Positions 21,536-55,031 of a stretch of DNA of 64,000 nt are shown here, piece by piece. The stretch lies in NCBI RefSeq assembly GCF_026151205.1, contig NC_087076.1, positions 2,503,902-2,567,901 on the forward strand. Reading direction: 5' to 3'. Position 1 is the stretch's first letter. Every line of letters starts with the position of its first letter. This stretch comes from Bolinopsis microptera. Its lineage: Eukaryota > Ctenophora > Tentaculata > Lobata > Bolinopsidae. The notes beneath the pieces are model-generated. The model searched no databases, had not been told where the DNA came from, and saw nothing but the letters and a program-made list of their open reading frames with translations. A program made the position numbers and the translations under genes.

Positions 21536-24146
21536 ATGGATAAACTTGTGTTACTTTGTTTCTCTTGTTACTCAAACACTATGTAGGGTGAGTGAATGAC
21601 TGAATGACTGAATGACTCAACTCACTCTATACTACTGAATTACTAACTAGCTACTAAATAAATATCTCAACACTATAATAAATTAAATGTAAATAAAGTC
21701 TTCTTTAGATTAACTATAAAATTAACTTCTTAGGATAAACTACTAAGATCTCTTACAAACTCCCGTTTGTTGTAGGCTTCTGTTTCTTGTAGGCTTCTCT
21801 ATATTAGGTGAATACTTGATGATCATGAAGGGCCTCTTGAACTAACGACTGTAACTAATGAACAAAAACCCTGGGGGAAAACTACTGTGAGTAAAAGTAA
21901 AAGGAAATAGTAAAACCAAGTGAAACTAGAAAAGGAAAGAGGAAGCAGGAACTCCAAGACAAAGAAACTAAACTATAACTATAAATTACTTACCACTCTT
22001 TCCACGTCACAGAACACAGATCGTATCTGTCGACCAGAATCTGTAGGATCATTTAAATACTAGACACTCCTCTCTCTTCTGCTGAACTGCTAGAGTCTGG
22101 AGTCGACTTAAACACTGGAACACTCCTCTCTCTTCTGCTACACAGCTAGAGTCTGGAGTTGAACCTTATCTTCCTTCTGGAGTCCCTTTACCCCAACACT
22201 GTATATACAATCACTGGAACTAAACCTTTGCTAAAGTGAGATACAGGGTTAGATAAGTTGAGTACAATTACAAGCTACAAGATTGCGAACTTAAATAGAA
22301 TTAAGATTCTAACAGTTTTTACCGAATGCTCATATACCAGTTACTCATGCTGCATTTATAGTCTAATAATATTTATTTGTTTTATTCTCTAGCAAGCATT
22401 CTGTAAATCGGAATGTCGCATTTATTATAAAAAGAACTAGCCAACCTCCGCATTATAATCTTTCGTGTGCCAAGTTAGTTTATAAAATCTAATCATATTA
22501 TAATAAAATTGATCCAATAATTTAAGATGAACGGTATATTGTAGCTCATCATTGTTCAAATTCGAATGAATGAATTAATCAAGTTGTGTTCCCTTTCAAC
22601 CCAACTAAAAAACAAACAAATGCTTGCTCACCAGTGGTGACGCGATAAAACAACAATAATTGATTGAATTGTGCTATAGTCATTTTTATGTAATTACCTT
22701 CAGTTCAAATGAATTCCTAACCATGGGAATTTTGTTACCAGCGTCTCCTAGTTTAGGGAGATTATCAGCCAAATGATCAGAAACGTTATAGTATAGAGCG
22801 TGAAGAGGGCCCTGCCAAAATATTTAAAATTGTCTCAGGACACCCCTTCAGCTTCAGTACATCTACATTGTACATTCTAGTGTACTGTAATAATAATAAT
22901 AATAATTCTATACAGTTACATAATTGAAACAATTATGACCCCTTATTGTGGGCAAAGTATGTGTCTTTGTTAAAGTGTCCTGGTATAAACTTATCTGAGT
23001 GACTGCATTAAAATAATTTAAGGAGATTTATCTAAAAGGTCCTTAAATAATTTCAGATCTTTTTTGGCTCCTCCACTGGAGCTTTGCATAAATTCAATAT
23101 TTTTTCGTACCAGACAAATGTTATGTCGGCCTGGATACAGTACATTTCGCTACCAAATTTATTTTAAAAGTTCCACAATTTGGGGAAAAAGTGCCCCCTT
23201 TGATGATCCCCCTCCTGTACAGCATGATACCATACACTATACTATGACACTGATATATCACTAACAATATTGTCTTCCAAAGATCACTACTTGCTGGCCA
23301 CACACATCTGAACGAAATTCCCCTAGTCTAGTGTTTTTTCAAGTCTTGTTCTGTGAGTAAAGTATGTGTTTTAATAAAATGAATGTATATCTTTGAATTT
23401 TTAAGATTTAATTTGAGAATGAAGTATATAGAAATTTTTAATTAGCACTGTATAGTTTAAGATATTTATAGCTGATTATAACCATTGTTACAAAGGCCTT
23501 AATTTTTCACCAGCTCTCCAATATCCATCTTGAAGTTGCATTTTATATCATCAAACTACACAATATGAACTTAAGCATACTATATAGTGTAGACTTTCTG
23601 TCACAACAAGACTGCAACCCACAGTAACAAATATAAGTTCAGAACCCCTAATGTCTGCTAACAATTTTCTTCTGATCCTAATATGAGCCTTTTCTCTAAA
23701 AAGTCAACTGAACTAGCGTTTCAGTGTGTGCAAAAGCTTTCAGGCACGCACATTCCTTGCCCCGTTAGTTACCTGTCCCTTCAAAATCAAACTAACAGTC
23801 GAGGACAAAAAGTCATACACCAAATGAGCATTATATTTCTATGAATTGTTTTACATCTTTTTAATCTGTAAAATGTGCTAAAAATTAAATTTCTTGTTTC
23901 ATTGAAATTTCTTGTTTCATTGACCGATATATCGCATGATTGTTATTTTCAGCAAAACAAAGTTATATTTCTCAACAAAATCTTTACATGTCAACTAAAA
24001 TTAAACTGTATTCGCTTTTGTAGTTCTCTAGATTTGCTTAAGGTTTGTTCTCAGAACGTTTTTTGCTGAGTATATGTGTATGCTTATGAATTAGCTGATT
24101 TTCACTTCTCTAAATCAATCGTTCAGGTCATCAGTTTTTGTGGGTT
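21536..24146. other. Intergenic region with a local tandem duplication
   Basis: No gene was recognised. At about 22,050-22,160 a unit containing cactcctctctcttctgct and agctagagtctggagt-like sequence is repeated twice in tandem. Short tgaatgac repeats lie at 21,595-21,620 and (aat)n at 22,888-22,906. The stretch 23,400-23,960 is a dispersed repeat also found inverted at 59,345-59,860. The last 50 bases hold acceptor-like AGs before the DXO start. Confidence 0.55.
23400..23960. repeat. Dispersed repeat, copy 1 (inverted copy at 59.3-59.9 kb)
   Basis: Landmarks shared in reverse complement with 59,345-59,860 include atttcttgtttcattgaa, aattgttttacatctttttа-type sequence before it, a caaaaagtcatacaccaaat segment, and gcacgcacattccttgcccc versus its diverged partner. 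Identity is partial with indels. It is non-coding in both places. The second copy adjoins a zinc-knuckle retroelement remnant, so it may be that element's untranslated region. Confidence 0.65.
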
Positions 24147-25214
24147 ATGAATAATCCAGAATATAGTCCTTCAAAAAAGCCCAAGTACAATGGATCACAG
24201 ACTACACATTTTACCAAATCCCGTTTCTTATTAGACTCTGCTACTGACCGCCAGAAATATAAACTTCCAGTCAAATCACTTGCATACAATCCTATCATGT
24301 TGGGAGAATTTTCATTGTCTAAGGACAGGATATTTTCTAATGGGGCCACAATACCAACTATTAAAGATGATGCAAAATTGCCAATCGATCTTAATGATGG
24401 ATTTGAAGACTGGTATGATTCATCAGAAATACCGACACTGGATGTTTTGTTCAAGTGGATATGTGATAACAACTTTGTTATTGATAATATAGGCCTTCTG
24501 ACATATCGTGGACTTTTGAAGAAAATAGCTGTGACAAAATATGATGTTTACAAAAACCATTGGTGTGTTAGATTAAGTAAGTTATATTCTACTGTCATAA
24601 TGGATGAGGTTGATACTGAGGAACAGAAAAGAAAGCGCCGCTCTGAGTCAGTGCAACAAAAGAAATTTCAGTACTATGGCCATAAATTTGAAAAGGAAAT
24701 TCTCGAGGTTGAAGATGATCAAAAAGAAAGTGATATTGTTGTGACGTCAAAAATTGGACAGTACAGATGTCTGTTAGCTGCTGAAGTTGATGGCAAAGAC
24801 AAAATGGGAAATATTGTTGAGATAAAAACACACCGCATAATGCTAAACGGTCATCACAAACAAGCTTTCGAGCGTAGTAAACTATTGAACACTTATCTAC
24901 AGTGCTATATTGCAGGTATCAGTCAAACTTGTTTTGGGTTCAGGGATCAGAGAGGGCATGTGACTCAAGTCAAGAACTATTCTCTTGATGAAATTGAGGA
25001 GCGTTGTGTGAAAGTGTGGAACAAAGATGCCATAATGCAATTTCTGAGTGAGGTCCTAAAGTGGGCCCTTAATCAGATAGAAACTGGAAAAGTGTATCAT
25101 CTGCTGTATTCTGGTGATAATCACATAACTCTGCAACAGGTTGAATATGTTAAGTATTTGCCGGATTGGTTTATTGATCATGCTAAAAAATCTCACGAGA
25201 ATAACAATTCTTAG
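24147..25214 (+). CDS. DXO: DXO/Rai1-family decapping and 5'-3' exoribonuclease
   Basis: A single-exon frame of 355 residues. DXO enzymes remove incomplete or non-canonical caps (including NAD) from RNA 5' ends and degrade the body, mainly in the nucleus. Family motifs appear in order: TYRGLLKKIAVTKYD, YYGHKFE, the metal-binding AAEVDG (E213, D215) and VEIKT (E225, K227), then FERSKLLNTYLQCYIAGI and CFGFRDQRGHVTQV. These acidic and lysine residues match the catalytic set known in DXO, so the enzyme should be active. The ATG at 24147 was chosen because the frame upstream has only non-ATG codons and an acceptor-like tcag ends 12 bases before it. Length is near the human protein's. ATP23 follows 327 bases downstream on the same strand. 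Confidence 0.93.
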   Translation: MNNPEYSPSKKPKYNGSQTTHFTKSRFLLDSATDRQKYKLPVKSLAYNPIMLGEFSLSKDRIFSNGATIPTIKDDAKLPIDLNDGFEDWYDSSEIPTLDVLFKWICDNNFVIDNIGLLTYRGLLKKIAVTKYDVYKNHWCVRLSKLYSTVIMDEVDTEEQKRKRRSESVQQKKFQYYGHKFEKEILEVEDDQKESDIVVTSKIGQYRCLLAAEVDGKDKMGNIVEIKTHRIMLNGHHKQAFERSKLLNTYLQCYIAGISQTCFGFRDQRGHVTQVKNYSLDEIEERCVKVWNKDAIMQFLSEVLKWALNQIETGKVYHLLYSGDNHITLQQVEYVKYLPDWFIDHAKKSHENNNS

Positions 25215-25541
25215 TGCCATGCTCAAATCTTTGAATACATAGAGTTTGAATATAAAGGATGATATGTTCATATTTTGGATTCAGTATTCATTAATTAATC
25301 TAAATAACATTTGCCATCATTTGCAATTAATACTCGGGTGATGCACCTCTTAATTAGTAATTACCAAGGTTGTTGATGTAATGAAATTTCTAATGACATA
25401 TTACACAGTTTCCTTTTAACCAGTTCGTCATATTAAGAAGTTTCTCAATACAAATTCTTACACCTGTTAACATGAGTTTATGACCTTTTCATTGATATAC
25501 AAATTAGAAATCTCTATATCAGATCATTTTTAGAGATAGAT

Positions 25542-27333
25542 ATGACAAGGAATGACGTAATACACGAAAAAACAGTTGCTGCAGTGGACTCACCAGACCA
25601 TATTAATTGTGAAAGATGGAAGCTAGAGGCTGTCAGAAATAACAAGATTGTTAAAAACATTATATCAAAAATCGATAAAACGAAGAATTTCAAATTCGAA
25701 AATTCGTGTATTTCTTGTGAATTCTGTCCCAATTCAGGTTTGTTATAATCATAATTATCGAGAGCCTTACAAAGCAGCCCTGGAATAGTTTATAAATGAA
25801 AACATTTGTAAAAATAAAACGATATTTAATTTTCAGCTTACTGAGTTACGTTTACAAATCCATAATTATTAATTTTACAAGGTATTATTATTAGGTTTAA
25901 AAGGTGGTCTAACAAGTGATCCTGAGATATTACTGTGCGAGAATAGTCTCAAATCTGCCTCTGACGTTGAGACCGTTCTTAGTCATGAGCTGGTCCATTT
26001 TCTTGATCATCTTAATGTAAGTCAAAACTATATTTCAAGAAATGTACGTTTGATAGCATTTATAATTTCGTCCGGGCCAAAAATCGTAATTCTTTTTCAC
26101 TCAGCCTTAATCGACTTGTAACTTGGTAAGCTATTGTCCAATCAAATAATCCTCTGGAGAAGTTCTCGTAAAAATTAATAAGAAGGTTCAGTAAAACAAT
26201 TTACCCAATAGCTTAAAAGTAACTAAAAAATCGGTATTAGAGTGACAGACTGGGGGGGGGGGGGGGGGGGGGTAATGACTACTTTTGGGGACTTGGGGAA
26301 TTACGTCAACGATTTTACCCCGAGTCCCCATGATTTTTAGTCCCCATTAGTCCCCAAAAGTCTCCATTAGTCCCCATTTAGATGATTTTTAGTCCCCATT
26401 AGTCCCCAAAAGTCTCCATTAGTCCCCATTTAGATTTATCCTACTCTTATCTTGGACAAAACATCTCGATCGTATCGTTATTAAACTAACTTGAAAACCA
26501 TAAATAACTGTCAAAAATTCTGGGGACTTATGGGGACAAATGGTGAATTACGTCAACGAGTTGACCTCTAGTCCCCACGATTTTTAGTCCCCATTAGTCC
26601 CCAAAAGTCTCCATTGGTAGTCATTACCCCCCCCCCCCCCCCCCCCCCCGGGGGGGTTAATGACTACTTTTGGGGACTTGGGGAATTACGTCAACGATTT
26701 TACCCCGAGTCCCCATGATTTTTAGTCCCCATTAGTCCCCAAAAGTCTCCATTAGTCCCCATTTAGATAATTTTTAGTCCCCATTAGTCCCCAAAAGTCT
26801 CCATTAGTCCCCATTTAGATTTATCCTACTCTTATCTTGGACAAAACATCTCGATCGTATCGTTATTAAACTAACTTGAAAACCATAAATAACTGTCAAA
26901 AATTCTGGGGACTTATGGGGACAAATGGTGAATTAAGTCAACGAGTTGACCTCTAGTCCCCACGATTTTTAGTCCCCATTAGTCCCCAAAAGTCTCCATT
27001 GGTAGTCATTACCCCCCCCCCGACAGACTTAACCAAAATTGAAAAACCATTTTTTTTTCTTTTCAGAATACAGATTGGACAGATATCAAGGCCCTGGCAC
27101 GTTCAGAGATCCGTGCTGCTAAATACAGTCTAGAATGTCACAACCAATATGGTGCTCAACTTTGGGAGGGAAATCAAGAACATCCCCAGCTGTGCAGTAT
27201 ATCACAGAGATTTAAGCAATGTGTAAGAGACAGAGCCACTGACTCAGTCAGACTTGTCACCAATGTTGGGTCCTTTAAAGCTCGATCTATTGTTGATGAA
27301 GTTTTTGAGAAATCATACAGTGAGGAATTGTGA
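25542..27333 (+). CDS. ATP23: Mitochondrial inner-membrane metalloprotease ATP23
   Basis: Three exons: 25542-25737, 25895-26016 and 27067-27333, joining in phase to 194 residues. ATP23 works at the intermembrane-space face of the mitochondrial inner membrane, where it processes ATP synthase subunit 6 in yeast and helps ATP synthase assembly. Exon 1 carries the cysteine pair CISCEFC. Exon 2 has GGLTSDPEILLCENSL and the zinc-metalloprotease signature HELVH (HExxH), followed by FLDH. Exon 3 has the conserved ARSEIRAAKYS and CVRDRATDSV blocks and ends VDEVFEKSYSEEL. It is shorter at the C-terminus than the human protein. Intron 2 (26017-27066) hosts a double poly-G/poly-C-ended element. An acceptor-like ttttag lies 8 bases before the ATG. 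Confidence 0.93.
26244..27029. mobile_element. Tandem dimer of a poly-G/poly-C-ended miniature element, 8-bp target duplication
   Basis: The insertion is 26252-27021 inside ATP23 intron 2. It opens with G21 (26252-26272) then taatgactac, and closes with gtagtcatta then C10 (27012-27021). The direct repeat gacagact lies immediately outside on both sides (26244-26251 and 27022-27029). The interior is two near-identical units, about 26252-26649 and 26650-27021, meeting head to tail at a C23-G7 junction. Each unit is itself palindromic at its ends and full of agtccccattagtcccca-type direct repeats. One target duplication around two units means a dimer was inserted or formed in place. No coding capacity. 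Confidence 0.8.
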
Positions 27334-27974
27334 AGATTTTATTAGTTGATTTGTGGATTGTAAAATAGTGGACTATAACTGATACAGAGACATAACAAAA
27401 AATTCTCAAAGAAATATTAATGTCTTGGAGTTAGCTCGAGTAATCCAGTTGCCAACTTTATTCCTTTGTTAACGTGTAAAATGATTGGAATTGTACTGAC
27501 CGTACAAAGGGTCTCTTTAACTACTGGGAATTTTAATTAACTCACATTTCATCTCAGTTTGAACTTTTAGTTGCAGATTTCACCACAAACCTTTATCCAC
27601 CTTTCAAAATCGTTTTACCACCAAGCATGGACTTTTGATTGATCACAACAAATATCGCCTCAGGATGTTATATTTCTAATTATTTTGTAAATACTGTATA
27701 AAAATAAATTTTAGATAAGTATTGAGCCTATTTCAAATTAAGAACTTACTAGCCCAGAGTTAGATTTATTAAACTAGTGTAATGAAAATCTATTAGATTT
27801 TAAATTGTGTAACTACCCAAACTTTGTTCATAACTGATAATTAAAATGTATGTTTAATCCCCATATAAATTTCTTAGAAGTTTTAATATTGTGGCAATCG
27901 GTGTCTGAATATTACAATGTCTCGTGATATTATTTTGAAATTAAGATAGACTATAATAAATAATTCCTTATAGA

Positions 27975-30900
27975 ATGTCGAGCCCTGGAGGGGAGCAACA
28001 GCGCTACTTCTGTCATCAATGTAACACAACGTGTATCCCGCAACCTCCTGAGTTCCTATGTCCTTCATGCAATGAAGGATTCATTGAGCCAGTAGTAACA
28101 CCTCCGCCACTATCTAGACCTCCTATGGGAATGTTCCCTAGACTTCCAGTGAGTTTACAAAATTTCATCAATCTAGACTTTCAATCTAGACTTTCAAACT
28201 TAATCCTATCTTCACCTCACAAAGATTCATTAGAGAAGATATGTATTGTAACTTATTTCTTATTTATTGTAACCCGTCACAGGAGGATATAGAAATGGGA
28301 GCAGTAGGTGGAAATGCTGATCTGGGTCTCAGGACCTCAATAGATACGTTTAGCAGAGGTCACATGCAACGTCACATGGAGGCGCTTCATCTCAACGACT
28401 TGCGGTCCTTGTTTCAGGGTTTCACTCCTCCTGCCACATCTGCTTCAGGTTTACTATTACTCTAAATTTATTAATTAAACTTAGAAACTGATATCAATTA
28501 ATAACGTAACTGCACCTGCAACCTTACAACCAATTCTTTTTCATCCTGCTATATTTTCTATTTAAGAATAATTTGACAGGTGAGAGAATGAGAGTTTCCC
28601 CGCCAACTTTAAGCAGTGGCTCCAACTCTAGTTCCTCTAACAGTGGGGCCACCCCTAACAGTGGCACCCTGCCCACTAGTGGCACCATGCCCACAAGTGG
28701 CACCATGCCTAGCAGTGGCACAGTGCCTAGCAGTGGCCCAACACCAATTAGGGTTGGAGGACATTCTCATCGTATCCATACATCCAATGTTAGTCCCCAT
28801 TCAGCGGGTGTGCCACCTCCTGAACTCTTCCCGGTAAGAACACTGTTTCGTTAGACTTTCTAAATTTTATCAAATAACGGAGTAGTTCGCTGTTTATTAG
28901 TCTCATGATTGAAATACTGATATCTGGATATTATCCGGTTGGAAGAGACAAGGACAAGTGAAACAAGGAAGTTAGGAGTAAGGGCAAATTTTCGGCGTCA
29001 ACGCCATCTTCAGGCTAAAATTGTTATAAATGTTAGTATATAATAAATGCTTCTATACTAGTTAAAATGCTAAATTAAAATTACACACACTGAATACAGG
29101 TTACATCAAATGGTATTGTACATTACATTGAAAATAGTGATGTACACACGTTTTACACTCTGTCCAAGTACATAATATCTACTGAACAGCAGGGTCGTGT
29201 GCTATTTGTTTAAATTTGTCTTTGAATATGTTGTAAAAGAAATCCCTTAAGCTTCTCGCACTCTTCTTTGTTATTGATACTAGGTTTAAATAAATTAATG
29301 TAGTAAGCTTCTGTCACTTTACGTTTAATGGTGCTATATAAGTTAATTTCTAAAATATCGAAGGAAATATCTGGTTCTATGTTATCGTGAAACTCTGAAT
29401 AATGAGCAGCCAACGCATTATCAGGATAGGTTAAAGGCCTGTTGACTGCTCTTCGATGCTCTGAAAATCTATCGTGTGCTGTTCTACTCGTTTCCCCTAT
29501 ATATAGCTCTTGACATAATTTACACGTAACTTTGTATATGACACATTTTGGTTTGCAGTCGTGATTTGTTGTGATGAGTGGACATATGATACAGTTTGGT
29601 ATGGTGCAGTGTGGTTTGTCGTGTGGTCGTGATGAACATAAGATCTCTGAGAGTTGTGGTGTGAATATGAATTTGAAGCAGAAAAAGAATATCACACTGC
29701 ACGCCAACAGCCACCACAATGAGGGAACTAAAGTAGCAACCATCAAGAACTTCTACAAAACGGCTGCTTTTTGCTCATCAACACCAGAGTATAAAGAAGA
29801 GTCCATGAAGATAGTAGACAACTTGTTGGTCAACAACGGTTACCAAGACCCACGACGTATAAACAAAACAGGACGACTTCACCCTCTCTCACCTACAACA
29901 CGTCATAACCCTTCATCATCAAACATACAAGATACCGACCACGTAACATGCACTCTACCATTCATCAACGAGCCATTTTCCAAAGAAGTCACTCAATTTG
30001 CCCTCTCACACAACTTACCGGTCAAATTCATATTCACACCAGGTAAGAAACTCTCAGAGATCTTATGTTCATCACGACCACACGACAAACCACACTGCAC
30101 CATACCAAACTGTATCATATGTCCACTCATCACAACAAATCACGACTGCAAACCAAAATGTGTCATATACAAAGTTACGTGTAAATTATGTCAAGAGCTA
30201 TATATAGGGGAAACGAGTAGAACAGCACAAGATAGATTTTCAGAGCATCGAAGAGCAGTCAACAGGCCTTTAACCTATCCTGATAATGCGTTGGCTGCTC
30301 ATTATTCAGAGTTTCACGATAACATAGAACCAGATATTTCCTTCGATATTTTAGAAATTAACTTATATAGCACCATTAAACGTAAAGTGACAGAAGCTTA
30401 CTACATTAATTTATTTAAACCTAGTATCAATAACAAAGAAGAGTGCGAGAAGCTTAAGGGATTTCTTTTACAACATATTCAAAGACAAATTTAAACAAAT
30501 AGCACACGACCCTGCTGTTCAGTAGATATTATGTACTTGGACAGAGTGTAAAACGTGTGTACATCACTATTTTCAATGTAATGTACAATACCATTTGATG
30601 TAACCTGTATTCAGTGTGTGTAATTTTAATTTAGCATTTTAACTAGTATAGAAGCATTTATTATATACTAACATTTATAACAATTTTAGCCTGAAGATGG
30701 CGTTGACGCCGAAAATTTGCCCTTACTCCTAACTTCCTTGTTTCACTTGTCCTTGTCTCTTCCAACCGGATAATATCCAGATATCAGTATTTCTAAATTT
30801 TACATTAATTGAATCCAAGTATTGTAGACGCCTTAGACAATCTTGATATTGCAACTGTGCTTTTGTAGAGTTATATGTTCAACTAAATCAGTAATTTTCC

Positions 30901-31581: not shown

Positions 31582-31717
31582 AATTGTGCAAAATAGAGAA
31601 AGTTTTGATGAGTGTGGATATAAAGATCAGAATTTTGTACAGAGAAAGAATCGTAAAAAATTCCGAAATTTGTAAATTTGATGGGATCTCGTAAGGCCGA
31701 GCGTGAGTTTTTAACAT

Positions 31718-31920: not shown

Positions 31921-32611
31921 CAATTTGAGGGGGAAAACTGAGCCGTAAAATGTAATTCAAAGATACTGTAATTGTATTTGCAGTCAGTACCTTGTATATT
32001 CTGAAAAGTTTGCCAAAAATATAAAGACAGTTACTATTAAGTTTCCAACTTTTTCGTCGCCCGAACGAGGACAAAACTTTTTGCGCAATTTTTGTGATCA
32101 AATTGATTTATAATTTTTTGGTATCGAACTTTTTGGGGTTGAGGTAATATAATCCGCCCTCCTGCGGCATTTTAAAGCAACATATTTGTATCCATCCTAA
32201 TTCACGTTTCGCTGATTAAGAGTTTTCGAATCATGTTTTACTAACCACATTTATTAACAAAATATTTTACCAGACCCTCTCCGAGTTAAAGAGCGAATTT
32301 GCTACAATTTTGTATATGGCACGTTTTATGATAAAATTAGTTAATTAGATGAATTTTGTTACGTACCGCCTCAGCTAGTTGTATCATTTTCTTGGTTTTT
32401 GTTGTGCAATTTAAGGAATATAACAATCGGTCACATTAACAATTCAACTTATTGGAAGGCGCGACGCCGTGTACGCTGATATCATAACATTCTTAGAACG
32501 CGCGTTCCTCTTAACAGAAATCTGGATTTTACATGAACGTTCTTAAATATCAGTCAGGTTTCCACGCTAGTTTTACTTAAACTGACTCATCACATAACAT
32601 TTAGGGTTAGG

Positions 32612-34387
32612 ATGTGCGGGAGATTAATATGCGTACTGGAGGGGCATAATTTAACAGTGAGGTGCCAGTTTCGGGATAGCGCAGGAAATGTAAGTACATT
32701 TACTGGACAGTTTCAAACATAGCTTAATCACAGAACTCAGTGGAATTTCAAAAGATGTTAAATAGACCTTAAGCTATACGCCGAGTCTAACTCTGAGATA
32801 ACAACCCAGATGATGAGACCAGAGTGGGAAGGTAGCTATCACACACCCGGGTACAATCTACCTCCAACCTCTCAGATACCGGTTCTGTTTGGAAAGATGG
32901 GAGAACGGAAATTTAGGTGAGAAATTTATATCTTCAACACATTATAACTTGTGTGGTAATATATGAGCCTATAAGCAACTTGCAAACTTGTAAAACTAGA
33001 AGTTATTAACCATGGATGTCAGGTCAATGAGATGGGGTTTGGTGCCCTCTAGTCACACCAAGTCGATCAAAGACTTCAAATTGTCCACGCACAACTGCCG
33101 GGCTGAGAACTTGCTAGAATCACAAATCTACTCTAAAGCTTTCTTTAAAGGACAGCGCTGTGTGATACCAGCTGACGGTTTTTACGAATGGAGTTCCACT
33201 AAAGGAGCGGAGAAAATACCCTACTTTGTCCACAGGAAAAATTCAGATGAAAGCGGGGAGAGAAATGTTAGTTTGAGGGACTAGAATAATTAATTGGTAT
33301 TATTATTTATATTTAACTCATAATATTTAACGTTACCACCGCGTGGTCTGCAGTGTTACTTTTTAGATAATAAATAATTGTTTTATGTGAATGTTTCATG
33401 AACGTCTTGCAATTCTAGCGTTGAAAATTTGAAACGTTTCAGCTCCTAATGATGGCAGGTCTATATGACAAATGTCGACTGAATAACGAGGATTGTATAC
33501 TATACTCCGCTAGTGTCATCACAGTCAGTGCCTCAGCACCAATGAGCTGGTTACACCATCGCATGCCTGTGGGTATTCATTGTACATTAACTGAGCTAAA
33601 ATCTCTCCTTTTCTTTAATGGAAATAGAATATCAGGTAAATTTCATCTATTAAGTACATTTATCTGCAGGCGCTATTGGAGACGGAAGAAGAAGTAAAGA
33701 AGTGGTTACACACAGGAACGCTTAAGGCGAAGGAAACGCTACCTCTTCTTTCGTCCCGACTATGCATTGACCTCTATCCAGTAAGCAAGGTGGTCAATAG
33801 TGTGTCAACGAATGGACCTCACTGCATCCAGAAAACAGGTTAGATTCAAGATGATTCATAATAGGGGGGGGGGGGGGGGGGGGGGTTGGGGGATAACTAG
33901 TGATAAAATAAGCTTTCCAATCATCCATTCATGACTTTTTCAGAGTTAACATATTTAAAAAATAGTTCATGTTAAGAAGTGAACAGTGGATATATCTGTT
34001 AAAATAAGTAATACGTGAATATCTTTTATTACAAGTTTATTGGTTTAAGTCGTTAATTAAGACACCATTCCATAACGCATTGAAATCTGAAAGTTCTTTA
34101 AGCTCGAAATAAATTTCGCTAGGACTGGTAAACCAACATATTACTCTATTCGCAATTTTCACCATAAAACTAAAACTGAGCCACTGGTAAAAACTAAAAT
34201 TATAAACTGAAACGTTATGAAGTGAGCTTGAAAGTTTATTTCACTGTGCATTTCAGAGCCACCTAAGAAAAGGAAGTCGAACACTCTGGACAATTTCTTC
34301 AACAAGAAAGCTAAGACATCCCCCGACCCAGTCTCTGATGATATGATAAAGAAGGAGGATGACCGGGCAGGCACCTCAAATAAGTAA
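32612..34387 (+). CDS. HMCES: SRAP-domain abasic-site sensor HMCES
   Basis: Six exons: 32612-32689, about 32810-32916, 33023-33266, 33443-33568, 33670-33838 and 34257-34387, giving about 284 residues in phase (exon 2 could begin 24 bases earlier). SRAP proteins form a covalent thiazolidine crosslink with abasic sites in single-stranded DNA at forks through Cys2. Visible are MCGR at the start (the nucleophile after Met removal), MRWGLVPS, the Asn in STHNCRAE, ADGFYEW with the active-site Glu, and HHRMP with the active-site His. The tail has a basic PPKKRKSNTLDNFFNKK segment that resembles a PCNA-interacting motif (L..FF). It is shorter than the human protein. The ATG follows an acceptor-like ggttag by one base. 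Confidence 0.92.
33864..33885. repeat. Poly-G run (about 22 G) in the last HMCES intron
   Basis: An uninterrupted G run followed by ttggggg. It is similar in length to the G runs at 12202 and 26252. No matching poly-C end was seen in this intron, so there is no evidence that it bounds a mobile element. Confidence 0.9.
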
Positions 34388-34887
34388 AACAATAAACATA
34401 TTGAGCCAAGATATCGAATAATGCTTATCGAAACCTCCAAAGAAAGGTCTCAGAAGTTTTTAATAGTTATCAGATTGATATATTGCTTTCGTTTACGGAA
34501 GGGCAGTTTTTATTTAACATATTTTCAATCGATCACAATTTAATGCCCGTATTTTAATTGTTTTTAATTTGAAGTGGTCGGACGTCAAATTAAAATGACG
34601 TTTGTACATCTTTTTTATTCTAAATTAAAATCTAATAACGTTATTTTATCTACATTTCACACGAATATAATCAATTAATTATTCAATTTTAATTTTATCA
34701 GTTTTTACAAGATTGCTTGTTTCATTATAGAGCGAACTCCTCGAGTAAATAATAAATATATTCATGCACAGATTTGATTTCTCTCACAAAAGGTTTCCTA
34801 TTCATATTCTTATCTTTCCTGTTTATAAGCTATAACCCGGATTATTCCAACAATTGTTTAAAATTACACTCAACTTCTCAGCATCAC

Positions 34888-36939: not shown

Positions 36940-37250
36940 GCTTTAAATGAAGATAATTTATTGTAAACTTCGCTTTTTAAAATTTCTTGATTGCTTATTT
37001 TCATAGAATTTTTATCTTTGCAGATCAAACTAAATCTGACACAAATCTTATTTATTTTACCATCCACTTTATTCTAATATTGATAATTTTGATGTTTCCA
37101 TTCTTTAATACATCATATCACATATGAGACTGAGTGATATTGTTGCCATTTGGTTTAAAAACTGTATTTCTAAGCATCAAATTACTTATTTGAATTGCTA
37201 TGAAATTGAAAGATCGAAATTAAATCTGTACTTCTATACTAGATAAGATC

Positions 37251-38425: not shown

Positions 38426-38760
38426 TGAGGGAGATGATTTAATTTATTACTTAACTTTCAGCTGTTCTGTTTCGTCCAGATGAATCTACTTTACTTCTGC
38501 GTTTTAACTGATTGGGGTTTTTTATTTTATTTTTAACAACAGTCGACTATTGGACGGATTTGACCAATTTTGTAAGCTGCACAATTTATCTTATCATAAT
38601 CATGTTTTATTGAAATTTGAATATCAAACGATTATTCAAACCCAAATTTTAAATATATTTGTCAAATTTAATTGCATTATTTCGACAGTTTTCTCCTCAT
38701 ACCTCAAATTCTTCTGTTTAGTTTAACATGGCTCCACTAAACTAGACTCTCTATTTAGTG

Positions 38761-39234
38761 ATGGAGGGAGAAAAACCGTGGGACAGTACCTACCAATACC
38801 AGTGTAAAAAGAAGATGTTTGAGGAGCACAAAGAAGAGTTGGGGGAAAGTAGAGCGGTGGCCCTGGCAAACGTGTGGGCTAATTATCATTTCTTAAGTAT
38901 GCCGGCTAGCTATCTCTCCTTAGATATGCGTGTTTACTATCTCTTCTTAGTGATGTGATTTCATAGGATCGTTTTAAACATTTTCTAGGTTCATTCATTT
39001 TCAATTTGCACTACGTTCTGTTTTTAATTGTTTTCTTCTTTGTTTGATCACATAATATATCCGGCAGATTGTTCCTACCCTCCTGAAGCATTAGCAGCCA
39101 TCAACAGCTGGGGACCTCCACCTAGAGATGCAATGTATGAGGAGAAGATGAAAGAGTTAAAGGACAGAGAGGCAATAATGGCTGGAGATAAACCTACAAG
39201 GTACATTAATACTATGTTAGCCAAGTTAATATAA
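38761..39234 (+). CDS. Small XRN2-binding (XTBD) domain protein, CDKN2AIPNL-like
   Basis: Exons 38761-38896 and 39068-39234 join in phase to a 100-residue protein that is almost entirely an XTBD domain. The core reads ESRAVALANVWANYHFLN then CSYPPEALAAINSW, with the same intron position as in the NKRF-like gene at 55012. XTBD domains of CDKN2AIP, CDKN2AIPNL and NKRF hold the 5'-3' exonuclease XRN2. The size fits CDKN2AIPNL (116 residues in human). A possible donor at 39201 could extend it, but no downstream exon in the right phase was found. The ATG lies two bases after ctatttag. It may be the detached XTBD module of the neighbouring NKRF-like genes, since those at 43.5 and 50.8 kb lack this domain. 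Confidence 0.85.
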
Positions 39235-43490: not shown

Positions 43491-43496
43491 TAGTTC

Positions 43497-46400
43497 ATGA
43501 ACGAGAGCAATCCCACCGACATCCTCCTTGAGTCACCAGTCAACTTCAAGGAAGATGTTTCAGTGAATCTTCCAGATCCTTCTTCCTCGAAACATGGCTT
43601 CGGCCCTCCTCCAGAGGAAACGAAAATACCCGTTTCGAATCTGCCACCCCAACCTCGGTCTGATGCTGCACCAGAGCAAACACTAGACGCTTCAGCTCAA
43701 CACTCTGATGCACCTAATAAAATACATATAATTATTGAGCAGTCTGTAGGACAGCTAGATGATCCACCAGAAGTATGCAAGGTTGATGGTAGTATGCACG
43801 ACTCTGCTGGTGACGGTGGAACTAGTAGTAATCCTGAACCTGAATTAATGGACAATTCTTTAAGAGAAATCATTGAGGATGAGAAAGAAATACTGGATCC
43901 AGTCGAGGAAAAGCTTCTACTATTCTTGAAGGATTCGTCCAAAAGAGAGATAGAATTTGCTGGTGACATTTCCAGTCACGAGAGATATTTGGTGCACAGA
44001 TTTGTGACAGAACATGGACTTACTTGTGAGAGCACTGGTAGTAATGCTAATCATAAATTTGTGGTAAAGAAGGCAGGCGATGAAGAGGACGAACTTGACT
44101 ACGGAGCTGGCGGTGACGATAATGAAGAGAAGATGGGCGATGGTGAAGAAAATATACAGGATATGGATGATGTTGAAGGTGATGTGGTCACTGATATTAA
44201 TGGGTCACCAAGTCAGGAAGATGTCGTGGAGCTTTACTCAAACTTTAAGGTTTTTAGCGAATTTTTTGTTCTCGGGACTCAGGGCTGGGGTCGTTCACGT
44301 GTGTATTACGTAATCAGCCGAGGGGTAGTCGAGGGCCGAGGGGAGGCGGTTTTGTGAATGAAACATGTTGACATATTTCTTTGTTCCTTTGCACATAAAT
44401 TATTGCATTATATTATTTCTCCTTTTAAAGGTTATCATAAATCTGTCTCCAATTTCAGGAAGTGGAGACTGTCCAGAATTCTGCAAAACCACCAAATACG
44501 CAAGCGAAAAAACCAAACCAGAATGAAATAAAGTTTGATGTCAAACATGTTAATCCACATCTAACCTTGCGGGATCTGAAGTTGGAACATTTCTCTGGGT
44601 GCTACAAAATGGACAAACCTGTCGTTTCGCAAATTCTTCGAAATATTTGCGGAAGTGCAAAAATTCCTCTTCAAATAGTTCTAGATGAGAAGAAATGCGT
44701 TGGTAATCCAGGTCCTAACAGGTGCAAGGTTTCAATCTATATGAACGATATTCATGTATCCGACGGATTTGGAAAAAATCGTAAAGCAGCTAAAGAATGT
44801 GCTACCCTTACTGCAATAAAATATTTGCAGCACAAAGGAGTCACTTTGTGGGATACTATAACATTGGAAGATAGGTTTGTTGTTGCAAAGCCCATTGAAG
44901 ATCTGGGAGAAGACAAAACCACATTTAAAAGAAACTTCCAAATATTTATGGAAGAATTCATCATGGATCCGAACATAGTGCAGCTTCGAGTTATAGGTAA
45001 ATTTCTAAAACATGTTGCGGACGACTGGAGAAGATCGGAAATTATCAGTAAAAGCAATCAGTATAGTCTTCGTAAAGACGTAACTAGCAATTTTATTCGA
45101 GTTTCCAAAACCAATTCTCTCGTGCACAACCTTGCAGCTTATCCTACTGATGAGTGCAGTGGCCCCTCAGACGATGGTTTACCTAACAAATATGAAGGAC
45201 AGGTAAACTTTTTTAACGAATACTATTTTCCGTCTTGCTTATAATGTTTATTTAATCTATCTTTAGCATCTTGTTTTCTTTTTATTTAATTTATCTTTCA
45301 TCCAAATTAAAAAATATATATATTTATATATGCATATATCTTAGATTTTTCAAAAGGAATGAATCGAAGATAGTCCAGAATTTGAGTTTCAAATTGAGTT
45401 CTAAATCGACCAGTTTCAAGTAACATGTCTTCATTTTCAGAATATATCAAGTTGTGACCTCTCTCAAAAGTTCGTCGAGAACCCGCTTCTACCTTTCTCT
45501 CTGAAAGAACTAGCTAAAACGAAGTACGATCGTCTGAACGTAAGCTCTAACCTCCGTAATTTGCGTCCTCTTAAACTGGACCAATACCAAGGCGTCGTCT
45601 CGAGGAAAGTTGTTGGTCAACACAATCTTCCTGGTATCATAACAGAAATAACAGAAGCTGTTGGAGTATCATGTGAGTTCGATGTGAAGGGACCTTTCGC
45701 TGGAGTTCCGAGACTTCAGTGGAGAGCGTCTTTGTCAATTAACAAAGTATTCATTGCTAAAGGTTTCAGCAAAACCGAAAGTAAGTCCAGAAGTGACTGC
45801 GCAAACAATGCCTTTCATTTCTTACTTTCTGTTGGTCTTAACCTTATTTTCGACGATGAGATAATTGATGGACAGATAAAAAAGGTCGAGAAAGCCGAAG
45901 TTGAATCTTCGAGTATTCGAGAACAGTTTTCTGTATTCCAGGAGGATAAGAGTTTTGTAAAAATGAAGTTCTGTTATAGAATCAGTGAGACTGAAAAGGA
46001 ATTGTTCGAGGTGTTCTGTGAAAAATATAATCTTACACTACTTTACGAGGGCACTGGTGAGATAATGGCAGTTAAAAAGAATTCACATCTGCACAAAATG
46101 GAACTCATCATAAAAGAAGCCGAACAAACCGTTCCCTCCGTTCAGTCCGTTATCATAATATCCAAGGAAGATCTGGCTGTAAATTCTTCTATTCGCTACC
46201 ATATCCAACAGTTTGTCAATAATGACAGTTTGCTTGAACTTCAATTTCCGGAAAATTTGGATGTAACTCAAAAGGAACTAATCGAAGTCCTCTCGGAAAA
46301 ACACAAGTTGAAGCACGATGTTGATGGTTTAAGTAAAATAATCCTCTCTAAAGATCCTGATGATCTTGCTAAAGTTCTGGAAACAAAGACAGAGCCCTCA

Positions 46401-48015: not shown

Positions 48016-48146
48016 GCTTTTCTTTGTAAACAATCTTGCATGTAAGAATAAGTGAGATCGTGTTAAGTTAAAATTCGAACATCGAAAATCGTGATAAACC
48101 CTCCCCCTTTTAACTGTTTATCTAATCTTAATCTATTGTAGGGAGC

Positions 48147-50160
48147 ATGGAAAGTGAATTCGATGACCCATTTGAAACAGATGAATACCAAGAAGAAGGT
48201 TCCTTCTCCTTCACTTCCTCTTTAAGTGGCACTCTTTGTGTTGTGGATTGTAGTGATGAGATGCTTACCAAAGATAACGAAACTGGTGTTTCCAGAGTGG
48301 TTCTAGCTCTCGAAGCTATCAAAGCCACCTATTGCAACAAATTGATCAGTGGATCTCTGGACCACATTGGAGTCTTGCTGTGTGGGACAGACACTAAAAC
48401 TAACGATTATCAGGGTCTTCATGTCCTGCTACCTCTCGACACCCCAGATAAAACCTGTGTTGATATTCTTCAGAGGACCTCAAACGAGTTTGCATCAGGG
48501 AAGTACCAGTTTGGGCACGGGCAGGTTTACTCTCCGTATCACCTGCTCTGGACTTGCAGTAGCATCTACACCAGCTGTGTTAAGAAACTAGGGACCAGGC
48601 TCGTCATGATCTTCACCAATGTGTCAGAACCCCACAATATCGACACTAAAACCAGACAACTTGCTGCAACCAAAGCACGGGATATGTCTGAACTCGGCAT
48701 CACTATCTCTATAATTACTCTTCCTTCAGTGGACGGCAGTCAGTTTGATATGGACAAGTTTTACTCCGTACTTGTACCTGATCACGAGGTTACCAACCCA
48801 ACTAATGACATTGAGGACTTGTCTATGAGAGTGCACCGCAGGGAAAGTAAAGTTAGAATGACAGCGAATATCAACTTTGTTGTTAATCCGGAACTAACAA
48901 TCGGTGTGAAATGTTGTAATTTATTCGGTGAATCAACAGCGAAGCATGTTAATCTGTGCAGTAAGACGAACGAGCCAGTGGTTTGTGTATCCTCAGTAGT
49001 CAGGGAGACTGACCGGTCTGTGCTGCTGCCTCACGAAGTTTACAGATCTTGCAAACTGGGTGAAGAAACCGTCATTTTTGGGCAGGATGAAGTTGATCAG
49101 ATGAAAGTACAGTCAGATAAAGGTATTTACCTGATCGGGTTTAGACCAGCAGGGGATATAAAGTTTCACCATGTTGCTGGTAAATCTACCTTCATTCGGC
49201 CTTGTGAAACTGTGTTTAACGGGAGCACTGATTTCTTTGTAGCTCTGCTAAAACGTCTCCATGCTCGGAAGATGGTAGGTATGGTGCACTGTGTGTCTCG
49301 TGAGGGTACTCCCGGTTATATCGGGGCTCTTCTTCCTCAACTAGAACAGAGGGATGAAGATAACGAGCAACTTCGACCTATGGGATTCCATCTTATACAC
49401 TTACCTTTTGCTGATGATATCAGAAAACTGGACTATGAGCCCAGCGTAGATCCATCAACTGCACAAGTCGATGCTGCCAAATCGTTGGTCCTGAAACTAA
49501 AAGCTAAGCAGTTTAGCTCTGACTTAATAGAAAACCCGCAAGTTCTGCAGTTTAACAAAACTCTTGAAGCCATAGCACTAGAGAAGGATGCAATAGAAGA
49601 GACAGAAGACTGCACTAAGCCGAATATTGAGAGTATGAACAAAAGAGCGGCAAAAGAGATTTCGCAGTTTAATAACGTTGCCTTTCCGGCTGGTTACACA
49701 ATTCCTGAAGACTGTAAGAAACCAGATTATAAGCGCGTCATCGCATTGGTTAGTCATTTCACAATTTTTTTTAAACTGTTTGAGCGATTTTTTCCTTCCC
49801 ATATTAATCTAACTAGGGTCTTTCTGGGCCTTTTTTCGGAAATAATAAACGTCTCCTCCTCACCAATGGTAAAGTTTATTGATGTATATGAAGGGTTTAA
49901 TTTTGACCTCAATCATTATTAGTGGCTTATGTATGATCATGATTAGTGGCCCATTTTAATTTATAAGTTCATCATCAACTTATTATTCTTCACACGCTAA
50001 GTGATTCTCATTGCAGGTGCAGAATAGACAAAGAGAAGGAACACTCTCGAAAGTGACTGTAACTGATCTGAAGCTGTACTGTAAAGGTGTCCGACTGAAG
50101 GTACCCTCTACTGCTAAGAAAGCTGAGGTTGTTGAGGCAATTAAGAAGTTTTTAGGATAG
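48147..50160 (+). CDS. XRCC6: Ku70, DNA end-binding subunit of the Ku heterodimer
   Basis: Exon 48147-49748 joins 50017-50160 in phase, 581 residues; human Ku70 has 609. Ku70 pairs with Ku80 to ring DNA ends and recruit the non-homologous end-joining enzymes. Parts in order: an acidic N-terminus, the von Willebrand A-type domain (CVVDCSDEM; RLVMIFTNVSEPH), the Ku core beta-barrel (CKTNEPVV-type segment; GIYLIGFRPAGDIKFHH; PCETVFNGSTDFFVALLKRL), FHLIHLPFADDIRKL at the end of the core, the C-terminal arm (VEAMNKR-like IESMNKRAAKEI), and a SAP domain in the last exon (KVTVTDLKLYCKGVRLKVPS). Exon 1 ends in a GT donor, and the frame beyond it is intronic read-through. An acceptor-like attgtag lies 5 bases before the ATG. 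It sits between two NKRF-like genes. Confidence 0.96.
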
Positions 50161-50785
50161 TTAAGCCCGGTAACCTTTTCAGCGCTTCATAGGTATGGTG
50201 ACTCAGCATTTTTCGTTTGCTTTTAATTTTTTAGCGCTATGAATTAGTCTCACAAAAATTTGCTAATTTTGTTTGAAACACTGCTTAGCTGTGGGATATG
50301 TTATCATTATGTTGTTTTCTTAATCAAGTTTCCAAAAACCCATACCAGTTAATTAATGTGTATAATCAAATAATATTATAGAAATGTATGCAATTAGTGA
50401 AACAATCATAATACTAGTGTGGCTATTTATTATGTTATGTTAATTTTTTTAAATTTAGAGTAATGTAATTTGTTTGTAACAGAAAGTTTCCATCTTATTT
50501 TATTCACACTTTTTACAACTTATTTATTTTAGCTTTAAATTTTCTATTATTTGGATCCTCGCGTTTTATTGTCGCATTATTAAACTGTACGGTTTCGATG
50601 AGGTTAAATTAAAGAAAGTCTAAATGTAGATTTCTCTTTCATTGTTTTTTAGTTGACGATTCTAGTAAAATCATGTTCTGTCCTTCTAAAGAAATGATAT
50701 CGGTGCCGTTTAATAATTTCAAGTTGTTTAATTCCAATAAATTAATAAATGCCTCCCTTAAACTTATTCTGCAGGGTACCTGACT

Positions 50786-53700
50786 ATGAATACACAACCT
50801 GGTCCCTCCTCCCAATTCCACTCTGACTTGCCTGATTTAGCAGCTAGAAAAGGTGGAGTTTGGACCAACACGCATGCGTTTGAGGAGACGCTTGTAAATC
50901 CTGATGTAGACCTTGATGCTCTCGGTATGGGCAATTTCAGAGGTATTTATGCCACTACAGTGAGACTTGATAACCTTATGAAGAACATTGTCAGAATATG
51001 CAAACTTAAAACTAGAACAATTGTAATCCACGCTGGAAATCCGGTTACGGTAAGATTTGAGATAAATGGAACTTGGATCAGTGACGGGGTCGCTCAGACA
51101 GAGAAACAAGCTACAGTTGCTTCTATCAACAATAGTTTGATATATTTGATTCGCTGCAAGGGTTTTCAGATTATTGCAGCTGAGCATGTACCGCTAGATG
51201 CTATCAAGAAGGTTTCTCAACATAAGCTTTTATTTGATACAAACAGCGAAGATCCAACTGAAGAGTTTGAAGCTGTGCGTTTGAAAGCAGCTGGTCTTCT
51301 CCATGACTTCCTCATGGATCCTTTCTTAATGAAACTTGAGCTTGGTGTCGAGAATCTGTCTCGCGCTCTCCGTGAGGATATACATAATTCCGCTAATGTC
51401 TGTAAACTGACACACAAGTCGTTTGGTACTGAAATTTGGTTTTGGAAGATCAATTCAATAAAACACAATTTGTTTTATTTGAATCTTTTCAATCTGAACT
51501 CTTCAGTATTGCAATGTTTTTTAAGGATATCCTTTTATAAAATTTAAATTTCGCTACCACTTTTCTCCAACATCTAGGCTATAGTTGACTTTAAATAGTG
51601 TACTAAAAAGATTTGGAGTTGAGCCATATTTGTTTTTGACATGTCACATCGATTCGCGGAATGGATTAGTCGCTGCAGGCTGCTAAATGCTAATTGGTTA
51701 ATTACTGTCACATGTCAAAAAATATGGCTTTCCTTTCTAAAAATAACCAAGTCTATTAATTTTCAATTCCCACACATTTCAGGTCCCTCCAGTAGAGAGA
51801 ATATTACTTAGAAAAGGGAAAACAAAGAAGAAGTTTTCAGATGATGGAATTACTGTTGGACATTTATATTTACAAAAGCCAGCCGGTATGAAAACTGTTT
51901 TCGCTGAGCCGGGAGAGTCACTGACCAAAGATAAGATTCAATTGAAAGAGGTCAAAAAAGATAGAAGGAAGCGTAACAAGATGCAGGCTCAATTAAAGTA
52001 CGAAAAAAAGAAGGAGCTAAAAAGAAAAGGGATAGTCGATGCAGTTAAACCGAAGCAGACACCTCCTAAAACGCAACCTTTACTTTTTGACGAAGATTCG
52101 ATAAATCCTGAGCTTTTGAAAAGTTTTAAAGCTCATTTCGCTGGATTCAAATTTTTGCCAAAAAGGTGGAAAAAAGCCCGTCCTGATCCCTTATTATTGT
52201 TAGAGAAGTCTGCGATTTGCTCAGGTTTTCTATGTAAGTTCGCCATTGAACTCATGGACACTGCAAGTGAAGATGAAATGACTGTCAAACTTATGATGCG
52301 TAATCTGAATATCAAGAAAGAATTTTGGGTTTCTTTGGGTAAAGGTAAGACGTTCGCGGAAGCCAAAGATGATTGTGCGAAGAAAACTGTTAATTTCCTG
52401 AGGACCAGAGCTAGAGGTATACCGAAATTTAATAATGCAAAGTGGAACAAATTTCTTCAGAAATTTCATCATCCCGAACACGTGTGGTCTTTTTCCAAGA
52501 AAGACCTTGGAATGGATTTTCTCTTATCTGCATCTCACTGTAAGATACAGGATGATAATGTTGGCTTCAAAATTCTTCAAAATCTAGGATGGAGTCCAAA
52601 CACTAGTATTGGCAAACATCGTCAGGGTGTTGCAAATCCTATTGAAATTTGGGTTGGTCATTCTGGTCATACCGGTCTCGGTTATAAAGATACAAATTCA
52701 GAAAATGGATCGATTATGGGCTCAATAGCGCTAGAAGAAATTCTGGTTCGATTCAGAAATAATGTTGATGCCTGGAAATTGCAATTTGTTGATCCTCTTA
52801 ATGAAAACGATGGTAGAATAATAATGTCAGAAAGTTGTAAACTCAAATTGAAGAGTGTCTTCTACAAAGGACGACATATCGCGATGGTCTGGAAGCCGAT
52901 CGTCCAGGCTGTGGGAATTACCACTGAGAAGTGTGAGCTGAAAGAGAATGATTATGAAATATCTGACGAAGAATCATTAATCCCGGCAGCTCGAAGTCAC
53001 TTTGAAGGGTTTACACTTGATAATTATGATCCGGGAACGTATTCGAAATCCGAAAATAATGATGGAGACGGTCGGGGAGTTGAAGATGATATTGATGGAG
53101 AAACCTTCTATGTCGATGACGATATCGATGGTGAGACTCTTTGTGGCGATGATCTTGATGGATATGACAACGATGATATCGATGGGGAAGAGCTTGACGA
53201 CAATTATGACGACTCTGATAACGATGGAGATGAACTTGAGGTCAATGGTGACTTCTTCGATGTCGATAGATATGAATTTGATGATGATCATATCGATAAT
53301 GGCGAGATCAACGATGAAACTAAATCCTTAGGGACTACTTTCAATTCAGTTGACCAGGGGCATTTACATAATGATGATTCTGTAGCCGGATCTTCAAGAT
53401 TTTTAGATCATCATGCCACTTTTTCTAGAAATAAAGTTCTACTTCCAGCTCCCCATGCTTCCCAAAGCTTGCTGTCGCAGCAACCACCTCGTACTGCTTC
53501 AATCATCCGACATCAACCAAAACCTCAAGAGATTCATCAAATACAGTCAAATAAAAAGCAATCAACCCAAAACCTATTGTCACAGCAACTATCTCATGAT
53601 CCTGTGAATAGGAGCCATCAGCAGAGACCACCAGAGGTTCCTGAACCCCATGTCATTGAGCACAGATTCCAAAGACCACTTCAAAACCGTCCATATCACC

Positions 53701-53831: not shown

Positions 53832-53997
53832 AGATAATCGCTACCTAGTGTTTTATAGTAACTTTGTAATGATAAGACTCTTGGAGCTCGAATTTTGTTT
53901 TGAATGTTCATATTGCATAAAAGATAATGGAGGAAGCAATCACCTAATTTCAGCAAGTTTTTTAAAATAAATTCAGGGCCTAAAACTTTCAATTAAT

Positions 53998-55031
53998 CGC
54001 ATTTGCGATTTTTTACTGTTATGGCCAACTCTGAATGATGTAGCTAAACCACGTTGGTATAATTATTTGAAATTACTATTGTCAAAAAACAGTATGATGT
54101 CATTGTAACATTTAATTCCCTCCCTCCCTCCCTCCCTCCCTCCCTCCCTCCCTCCCTCCCTCCCTCCCTCCCTCCCTCCCTCCCTCCCTCCCTCCCTCCC
54201 TCCCTCCCTCCCTCCCTCCCTCCCTCCCTCCCTCCATCCTTCCTTCCTTCCTTCCTTCCTTCCTTCCTTCCTTCCTTCCTTCCTTCCTTCCTTCCTTCCT
54301 TCCTTCCTTCCTTCCTTCCTTCCTTCCTTCCTTCCTCCCTCCCTCCCTCCCTCCCTCCCTCCATCCTTCCTTCCTTCCTTCCTTCCTTCCTTCCTTCCTT
54401 CCTTCCTTCCTTCCTTCCTTCCTTCCTTCCTTCCTTCCTTCCTTCCTTTTTTATTGCAATAATTACTGACTGGTTTGTGATTAAAGATATTCAATTTTAC
54501 TGACCCTAACCAATCTTTTATAATCTTATGAAGGCATGACATCTACAGAATTCCCCGCATTTGCGATTTTTTACTGTTATGGCCAACCCTGAATGATGTA
54601 GCTAAACCACGTTGGTATAATTATTTGAAATTACTATTGTCAAAAAACAGTATGATGTCATTGTAACATTTAATTCCCTCCCTCCCTCCCTCCCTCCCTC
54701 CCTCCCTCCCTCCCTCCCTCCCTCCCTCCCTCCCTCCCTCCCTCCCTCCCTCCCTCCCTCCCTCCCTCCCTCCCTCCCTCCCTCCCTCCATCCATCCTCC
54801 TCCTCCTTCCTCCTCCTCCTCCTCCTCCCTCCTCCTTCCATCCTTCCTTCCTTCCTTCCTTCCTTCCTTCCTTCCTTCCTTCCTTCCTTCCTTTCTTTCC
54901 ACATGTTTTTGTGTAAATGTTAAATTTTATTGCAATAATTACTGACTGGTTAGTGATTAAAGATATTCAATTTTACTGACCCTAACCAATCTTTTATAAT
55001 CTTATGAAGGCATGACATCTACAGAATTCCC
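53998..55031. repeat. Tandem duplication with long (TCCC)n/(TTCC)n microsatellites, including the start of the next gene
   Basis: Two units, 53998-54555 and 54556-55031, share the same flanking sequence (start cgcatttgcgattttttact; end catgacatctacagaattcc). Each contains a pyrimidine tract: about 54117-54447 in the first and 54674-54893 in the second, composed of tccc and ttcc repeats, with tcc triplets in the second. Length differences between units come from these tracts. Each unit ends with the first codons of the NKRF-like gene, so an extra ATG with seven codons stands at 54536. Confidence 0.9.

Follow-up and report, generated by a model that had tools for sequence, protein, structure and literature searches.

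A stretch of 64,000 nucleotides from the ctenophore Bolinopsis microptera (contig NC_087076.1, positions 2,503,902 to 2,567,901, hereafter the window) carries 11 plus-strand genes whose start codons lie just behind AG dinucleotides resembling splice acceptors. On the DNA evidence, B. microptera is a species with spliced leader (SL) trans-splicing, and these AGs very probably serve as 3' splice sites at which such a leader is joined to the message. The genes and their candidate acceptors, numbered from the first base of the window, are as follows.

24125..24147, plus strand: DXO, with a RAI1 domain (Pfam); candidate AGs at 24125-24126 (20 nt from the start codon) and 24133-24134 (12 nt); ATG at 24147
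25532..25542, plus strand: ATP23, a complete open reading frame (ORF) of three exons; acceptor atcatttttag, 8 nt upstream of the ATG at 25542
27972..27975, plus strand: RNF126-like gene, with a RING domain in a later exon; acceptor attccttatag, 1 nt upstream of the ATG at 27975
32603..32612, plus strand: HMCES; pyrimidine-preceded AG 7 nt, and nearest AG 1 nt, upstream of the ATG at 32612
34880..34888, plus strand: INTS11, with beta-CASP/RMMBL domains (Pfam); acceptor caacttctcag, 6 nt upstream of the ATG at 34888
37241..37251, plus strand: IMP4, with a Brix domain and a complete joined ORF; acceptor cttctatactag, 8 nt upstream of the ATG at 37251
38757..38761, plus strand: XTBD gene; acceptor ctctatttag, 2 nt upstream of the ATG at 38761
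43492..43497, plus strand: NKRF-like 1, with an R3H domain; acceptor cagttttag, 3 nt upstream of the ATG at 43497
48140..48147, plus strand: Ku70, with Ku_N, Ku and Ku_C domains (Pfam); acceptor atcttaatctattgtag, 5 nt upstream of the ATG at 48147
50773..50786, plus strand: NKRF-like 2; acceptor aacttattctgcag, 11 nt upstream of the ATG at 50786
55008..55012, plus strand: NKRF-like 3; AAG, 2 nt upstream of the ATG at 55012

Pfam matches support DXO/RAI1, Ku70 and the RING, beta-CASP/RMMBL, Brix and R3H/G-patch proteins; the labels ATP23, HMCES and XTBD are names given in the initial annotation of this DNA and are not family-based, and the start exon of NKRF-like 2 has no Pfam match. Joining of the exons gives a complete six-exon ORF beginning MCGR for HMCES, and a frame open across the first 260 residues, the part displayed, for INTS11. 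Another ATG, at 37721, is not a start codon, as it precedes the acceptor of IMP4 exon 3.

The initial annotation had drawn attention to an AG within 12 nt upstream of these start codons, and indeed all 11 ATGs are present and each has one. The individual distances that it gave are those of the nearest AG for eight genes; in ATP23, IMP4 and Ku70 the nearest AG lies at 2, 3 and 1 nt, respectively, and the 8, 8 and 5 nt reported for them are the distances of the pyrimidine-preceded AGs. Taken alone, an AG within 12 nt is weak evidence because it is no special property of start codons: 57.6% of the 1137 plus-strand ATGs of the window share it, which favours the explanation that frequent AGs and A/G-rich starts bring an AG near any ATG by chance and start-codon context. 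The window starts nevertheless differ from a control set of 2186 window ATGs on both strands, with a median distance to the nearest AG of 2 versus 10 nt (p=0.0016) and to the nearest pyrimidine-preceded AG of 5 versus 23 nt (p=5e-4). A pyrimidine-preceded AG occurs within 12 nt at 10 of the 11 starts, NKRF-like 3 being the sole one to lack it, versus 34% of the controls, and no comparable shift in distance was seen for GA, AC, TG or CA.

The earlier remark that most of these AGs follow a pyrimidine-rich run also holds, since 10/11 starts, versus 16.5% of the controls, have a YAG no more than 15 nt away in which 7 or more of the 12 nt before the AG are pyrimidines. When this simple rule was run with 12 combinations of cut-offs, nine gave p<=0.013 for the window starts; the three strictest (9/12 pyrimidines; 1/11, 1/11 and 2/11 starts) were not significant for the window alone. 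A position-specific splice-site score derived from 19 cis acceptors in the window gave p=4e-4 for the 11 starts, and a pooled score with a +1 term gave p=4e-5, with IMP4 and XTBD scoring low; both scores penalise TAG and first bases other than G, and the simple pyrimidine-AG rule was used for the main counts.

The same pattern was looked for in the whole assembly, which comprises 264,652,675 bases in 232 contigs, with 258,070,895 bases (97.5%) in contigs 1-13 and 198 kb in contig 14. Ras-family and E2 genes, in which the start codon lies close to the beginning of the conserved domain, served as an independent set. Of 151 Ras and 41 E2 matches, those retained were the loci that include the domain start; 63 loci were examined (22 of 30 Ras loci and 41 of 52 further regions), 19 failed fixed rules, and removal of nine near-duplicates from the remaining 44 left 35. 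A YAG lies within 12 nt at 27 of these 35 starts (p=3e-8 versus the window controls), and the stricter rule (15 nt, 7/12 pyrimidines) is passed by 18, versus 16.5% of the window controls and 15% of control positions placed upstream in the same loci. Pyrimidine-preceded AGs at starts are thus a genome-wide pattern, yet not a universal one. With pyrimidine-AG enriched, GA and other dinucleotides not, and the enrichment replicated in these 35 other starts, the chance explanation deserves next to no credence. Many Ras-like genes also form a tandem cluster on C1 (12.43-12.46 Mb), each matching in one uninterrupted frame.

As a check, the initial annotation had asked whether the genome encodes a leader RNA that has a GU donor and an Sm site. 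Starting from the published leader of Hormiphora (PMC8527503), genes with an exon/GTAAG donor (the slash marks the splice junction) were found in tandem arrays; the Sm site that accompanies them is only Sm-like, ATCTTTTGG. The first leader, SL1, has an exon of 44 nt, leader exons overall measuring 44-47 nt, and its core reads CAGTTTTAATACTTTCAACACTACTATATAACAAATAATTTGAG/GTAAGATTAAGTTCC, followed by a stem-loop, ATCTTTTGG and a second stem-loop. The exon end plus GTAAGATTAAGTTCC has 93 matches with at most 3 mismatches, 71 of them exact, and none in the reversed control. The second leader, SL2 (CAGTTTTAAACTAATTACAACACTACAAATCTATTACATTTATTGAG/GTAAGATTAAG), shares most of the intron part with SL1, including the GTAAG donor, and differs in the exon; it occupies its own array on C1, with a unit of 434 bp, which holds 73 of 100 SL2 places among the matches listed. 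The exons probably begin with CAG or AG. Each Sm-like site, ATCTTTTGG in SL1 and CTCTTTTGG in SL2, lies between two predicted stems; the leader RNAs, with a predicted length of about 130 nt, would presumably bind Sm proteins, and the SL1 RNA folds with z = -2.5. When the SL1 exon is aligned with the leader published for Hormiphora, the two agree in 39 of 46 columns.

SL1 genes lie mainly in arrays on C3, C5 and C13. Those on C5 and C13 are inside 5S ribosomal RNA (rRNA) repeats, on the same strand as 5S, while the C3 array has a 591-bp repeat; no 5S was found in a 1.5-kb SL1 stretch on C3 (L078) or in the SL2 stretch on C1 (L193). At the gathering threshold, Rfam recognised only 5S, in L013, L005, L006, L060 and L067. 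Exon and intron core are identical between C5 and C13, and C3 aligns with them at 133/138. For the 100-nt flanks, agreement extends to 75-82 of 110-114 columns when C5 is compared with C13, and to 60-72 of 113-126 columns when these are compared with C3. C13 also contains diverged SL1 copies (12.79-12.91 Mb). By eye, a motif near AAGGAAAGAGCT, taken for a putative promoter element, recurs upstream in the four array units displayed. Finally, several loci (e.g. C3:2780523-2783860) have pairs of 5S rRNA genes that face each other at a distance of about 3 kb; the L005/L006 pair sits within extended inverted repeats (91% over some 2.4 kb), as if borne by a mobile element or a palindrome.

Leader exons are not confined to these genes. 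Genome-wide, there are 1747 occurrences of the SL1 exon end and 1082 of the SL2 exon end, leader genes included, with none in the reversed controls. Inspection covered 51 regions with 60 of 100 listed SL1 places, all on C1 and C2, and 8 of the 27 listed SL2 places outside the array; together with a copy in the window, L154 and relatives of the window element (see below) they make a comparison set of 78 copies. In 64 of these the exon is joined directly to other sequence and in 14 it is followed by GT. The copies fall into 18 families of at least two and 20 singletons; some form head-to-head pairs, which are not independent. The same leader stands before unrelated sequences, as is characteristic of SL trans-splicing. 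Two leaders may also occur at one base, as in L186 (SL1) and L198 (SL2), which match at 98.75% over 80 nt. In L141, L143, L147 and L149 (C1), SL1 exons stand head to head, with the same element on both sides and few bases between, and L177 (C5:8570790-8570990) has a leader followed by GTATGTCCAATTGAG and then again by GTATGTCCAATG, suggestive of either a remnant of two leaders or a duplication of the start.

For one gene, the parent of such copies was found. In L136 (C1), the SL1 leader is joined to CTAAGTTCTCTACCTCGACATGAAACTG, and a genome search located the matching sequence, split by a gap, in L153 on C3. There the same sequence is preceded by ttcaatcttgttctag and reads cttgttctag/CTAAA...ATG, with the AG 19 nt upstream of the ATG, and the gap is a 700-bp intron (GCAG/gttag...ggcag/GAGG). 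L136 and a second copy, L154 (C3), are intronless and carry the full SL1 exon exactly at the parent's AG (SL1/CTAAG...ATG), that is, both have the leader at the 5' end and have lost the parent's intron, as expected of SL-tagged retrogenes. The leader thus replaces everything upstream of the parent's AG in an RNA from which the cis intron was missing as well, which we read as a record of trans-splicing in DNA. Such copies were presumably made by the reverse transcriptases of resident retroelements. Leader exons might also have been acquired by template switching of reverse transcriptase onto SL RNA, rather than from trans-spliced RNA; U6-L1 chimeras provide a precedent, and it would fit that the SL-headed copies include many repetitive ones, a number of them arranged as head-to-head pairs. 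The copies stop at the exact splice donor, only one of the 78 running on into the leader RNA intron (L201, which looks like a dispersed SL2 gene), and the junction in the gene is exactly the parent's AG, which makes this origin most improbable.

Leader-bearing families are also represented within the window, as listed below.

59854..59897, plus strand: full SL1 exon of 44 nt, identical to that of the SL1 genes, embedded in the window
59898..60141, plus strand: dispersed element headed by this SL1 exon, with relatives carrying SL1 (L173) or SL2 (L174) at the same junction
30645..30690, plus strand: acceptor of a GIY-YIG element in an RNF126 intron, aacatttataacaattttag/CCTGAAGATGG, with 30690 as the first base after the AG
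29014..29059, minus strand: the same acceptor in the inverted arm of the GIY-YIG element

Relatives of the element at 59898 carry SL1 in L173, part of SL1 in L179, and SL2 in L174 and, by eye, in L175, all at the same base, and L178 has SL2 in reverse beside it. Pairs with different leaders (the window element and L173 versus L174, and including L186 versus L198) match at 97.5-98.8% over 80 nt, and L179 versus L174 at 89% over 56 nt. Repeated trans-splicing accounts for the occurrence of two leaders at a single base, whereas passive carriage of a leader by the element would not; recombination could also have brought them together. The GIY-YIG element, which we take to be Penelope-like, lies as an inverted pair within an RNF126 intron (28900-30800), and its domain scores 20.4 bits, slightly under the Pfam cut-off of 22.6. 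In both arms the sequence reads aacaattttag/CCTGAAGATGG, at 30690 (plus) and 29014 (minus), while copies elsewhere read SL1/CCTGAAGATGG, with the leader at the same base as the window AG. The AG form in the window and the SL1 form elsewhere thus identify the acceptor of a leader-joined family inside the window itself. A leader exactly at the AG of the leaderless form was found for one gene with its two copies and for this one element.

These data bear on the explanation by which the AGs are acceptors of ordinary cis introns in the 5' untranslated region (UTR), each gene having its own upstream exon. Introns of this kind are common in animals, and the cis introns of the window share their acceptor type with the AGs at the start codons. 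The leader RNA genes, the leader-headed intronless copies and the two leaders at one junction are left unexplained by it. Furthermore, the same-strand gaps between the seven tandem genes measure 327, 641, 1030, 500, 311 and 335 bp, and a promoter, an exon and an intron would have little space in the 311-335 bp that precede IMP4, ATP23 and XTBD. Cis introns as the general explanation are therefore very unlikely.

The suggestion of the initial annotation that the genes obtain their 5' ends from a spliced leader is thus supported by the leader RNA genes and by the intronless copies with the leader at the parent's AG, and each of the 11 window genes would presumably receive one. SL1 or SL2 leader RNA would be transcribed from the tandem arrays and would donate its 44-47 nt exon, from the GU donor, to pre-mRNAs in which the first splice site is an acceptor just 5' of the start codon; the outron, i.e. 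the stretch upstream of this acceptor, would be discarded. Trans-splicing of every gene is not required, since only 18 of the 35 Ras/E2 starts pass the stricter rule and 8 have no YAG within 12 nt.

These same Ras/E2 figures count against the proposal, as do several other observations. Any single AG of a window gene could be a 5'-UTR cis intron acceptor, the parent and copies of a single gene were worked out, and no retrocopy of INTS11-IMP4 was found in the genome search. A minus-strand gene at 39568-41697, which is outside all counts, has by eye no clear leader acceptor at its likely start, and L176, a relative of the window element, bears neither leader. With regard to the leader RNAs, the first leader pattern gave four matches versus one in the reversed control, two of the four being leader genes; neither ATCTTTTGG nor CTCTTTTGG is an exact AT(4-6)G; and covariation amounts to one stem pair (U-A to A-U) among four leader RNAs, a shallow set, and does not go beyond shuffles (120/500).

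A more tentative idea, which we regard as possible rather than probable, is that the retroelements need no promoter of their own, leader addition freeing the element from a read-through transcript and giving it a 5' end suited to both translation and reverse transcription. If so, each insertion would bear a leader exon, thousands of copies would constitute a log of used acceptors, and SL1 or SL2 at one base of an element would reflect a leader taken afresh in each round.

Other features of the window were noted. The minus-strand gene at 39568-41697 has weak NERD and ResIII matches, below the Pfam cut-offs, and the first ATG of its long ORF is seemingly intronic. An ATP23 intron contains repeated units (AGTCCCCATTAGTCCCCAAAAGTCTCC) at 26245-27020, with runs of G and C at the unit edges, and a long, strongly strand-skewed simple repeat rich in purines at 54044-54904 gives rise to spurious minus-strand ORFs with EGRK repeats. 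Rfam gave no match in the window at the gathering threshold.

Derelle et al. (2010) are reportedly a source for leaders in ctenophores. Comparison with known systems indicates that leaders were already known in this group from Hormiphora californensis (PMC8527503), with a similar length and sequence (39/46 columns, as above), the same type of end (...TTTGAG) and 718 leader matches in a 110-Mb assembly, to be compared with 1747 in 265 Mb here. One possible reason given there for shared first exons is mapping to the closest leader locus, whereas in B. microptera leader genes are told apart from leader-headed copies, a second leader is recognised and SL1 genes are located in 5S repeats. By this reading, many of the "leader sequences" of ctenophore genomes may be retrocopies and not leader genes. 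The exon/GT donor, the Sm-like site between stem-loops and the multicopy state recall the SL RNA genes of Hydra and nematodes (PMC7986045), the differences being the Sm-like ATCTTTTGG and a mostly common intron part behind different exons in SL1 and SL2.

Chaetognaths also have more than one leader, with leader genes in a 5S cluster (Spadella, PMC2566580; Paraspadella gotoi, PMC12460157), and processed pseudogenes bearing the motif have been raised there as a possibility, not demonstrated (PMC2566580, PMC12460157). Here, by contrast, leader-bearing copies are seen and SL2 lies apart from 5S. Besides, the initial annotation had seen room for polycistronic transcription in the short same-strand gaps. 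For P. gotoi, a spacing under 250 bp served as the operon criterion (PMC12460157), and none of the six window gaps (311-1030 bp) falls below this limit for SL-resolved operons; operons had not been reported in ctenophores according to PMC7986045.

In dinoflagellates, mRNA-derived DNA copies retain a 5' leader remnant (PMC6050394, PMC12014239); the copies described here differ in that they occur in an animal, carry full leaders of 44-47 nt of two kinds and are in many cases repetitive elements. No leader-tagged retrocopies or retroelements of animals were recognised among the papers listed, which were assessed mostly from the title and the opening of the abstract and included few subscription papers. 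Trans-splicing in an animal is demonstrated here from DNA alone, by a route that lists real acceptors without RNA work and that may be tried in other ctenophores, sponges, hydrozoans and flatworms. A further animal parallel is Hydra, in which transposon RNA is trans-spliced and about 30% of transposon Iso-Seq reads carry the leader (PMC12220107); that evidence is at the RNA level, and leader exons rewritten into the genome are not mentioned in the accessible part of the paper. Together with the trans-spliced transposon RNA of Hydra (PMC12220107), the leader-headed elements of B. microptera would tie the spread of retroelements to trans-splicing in early-branching animals.

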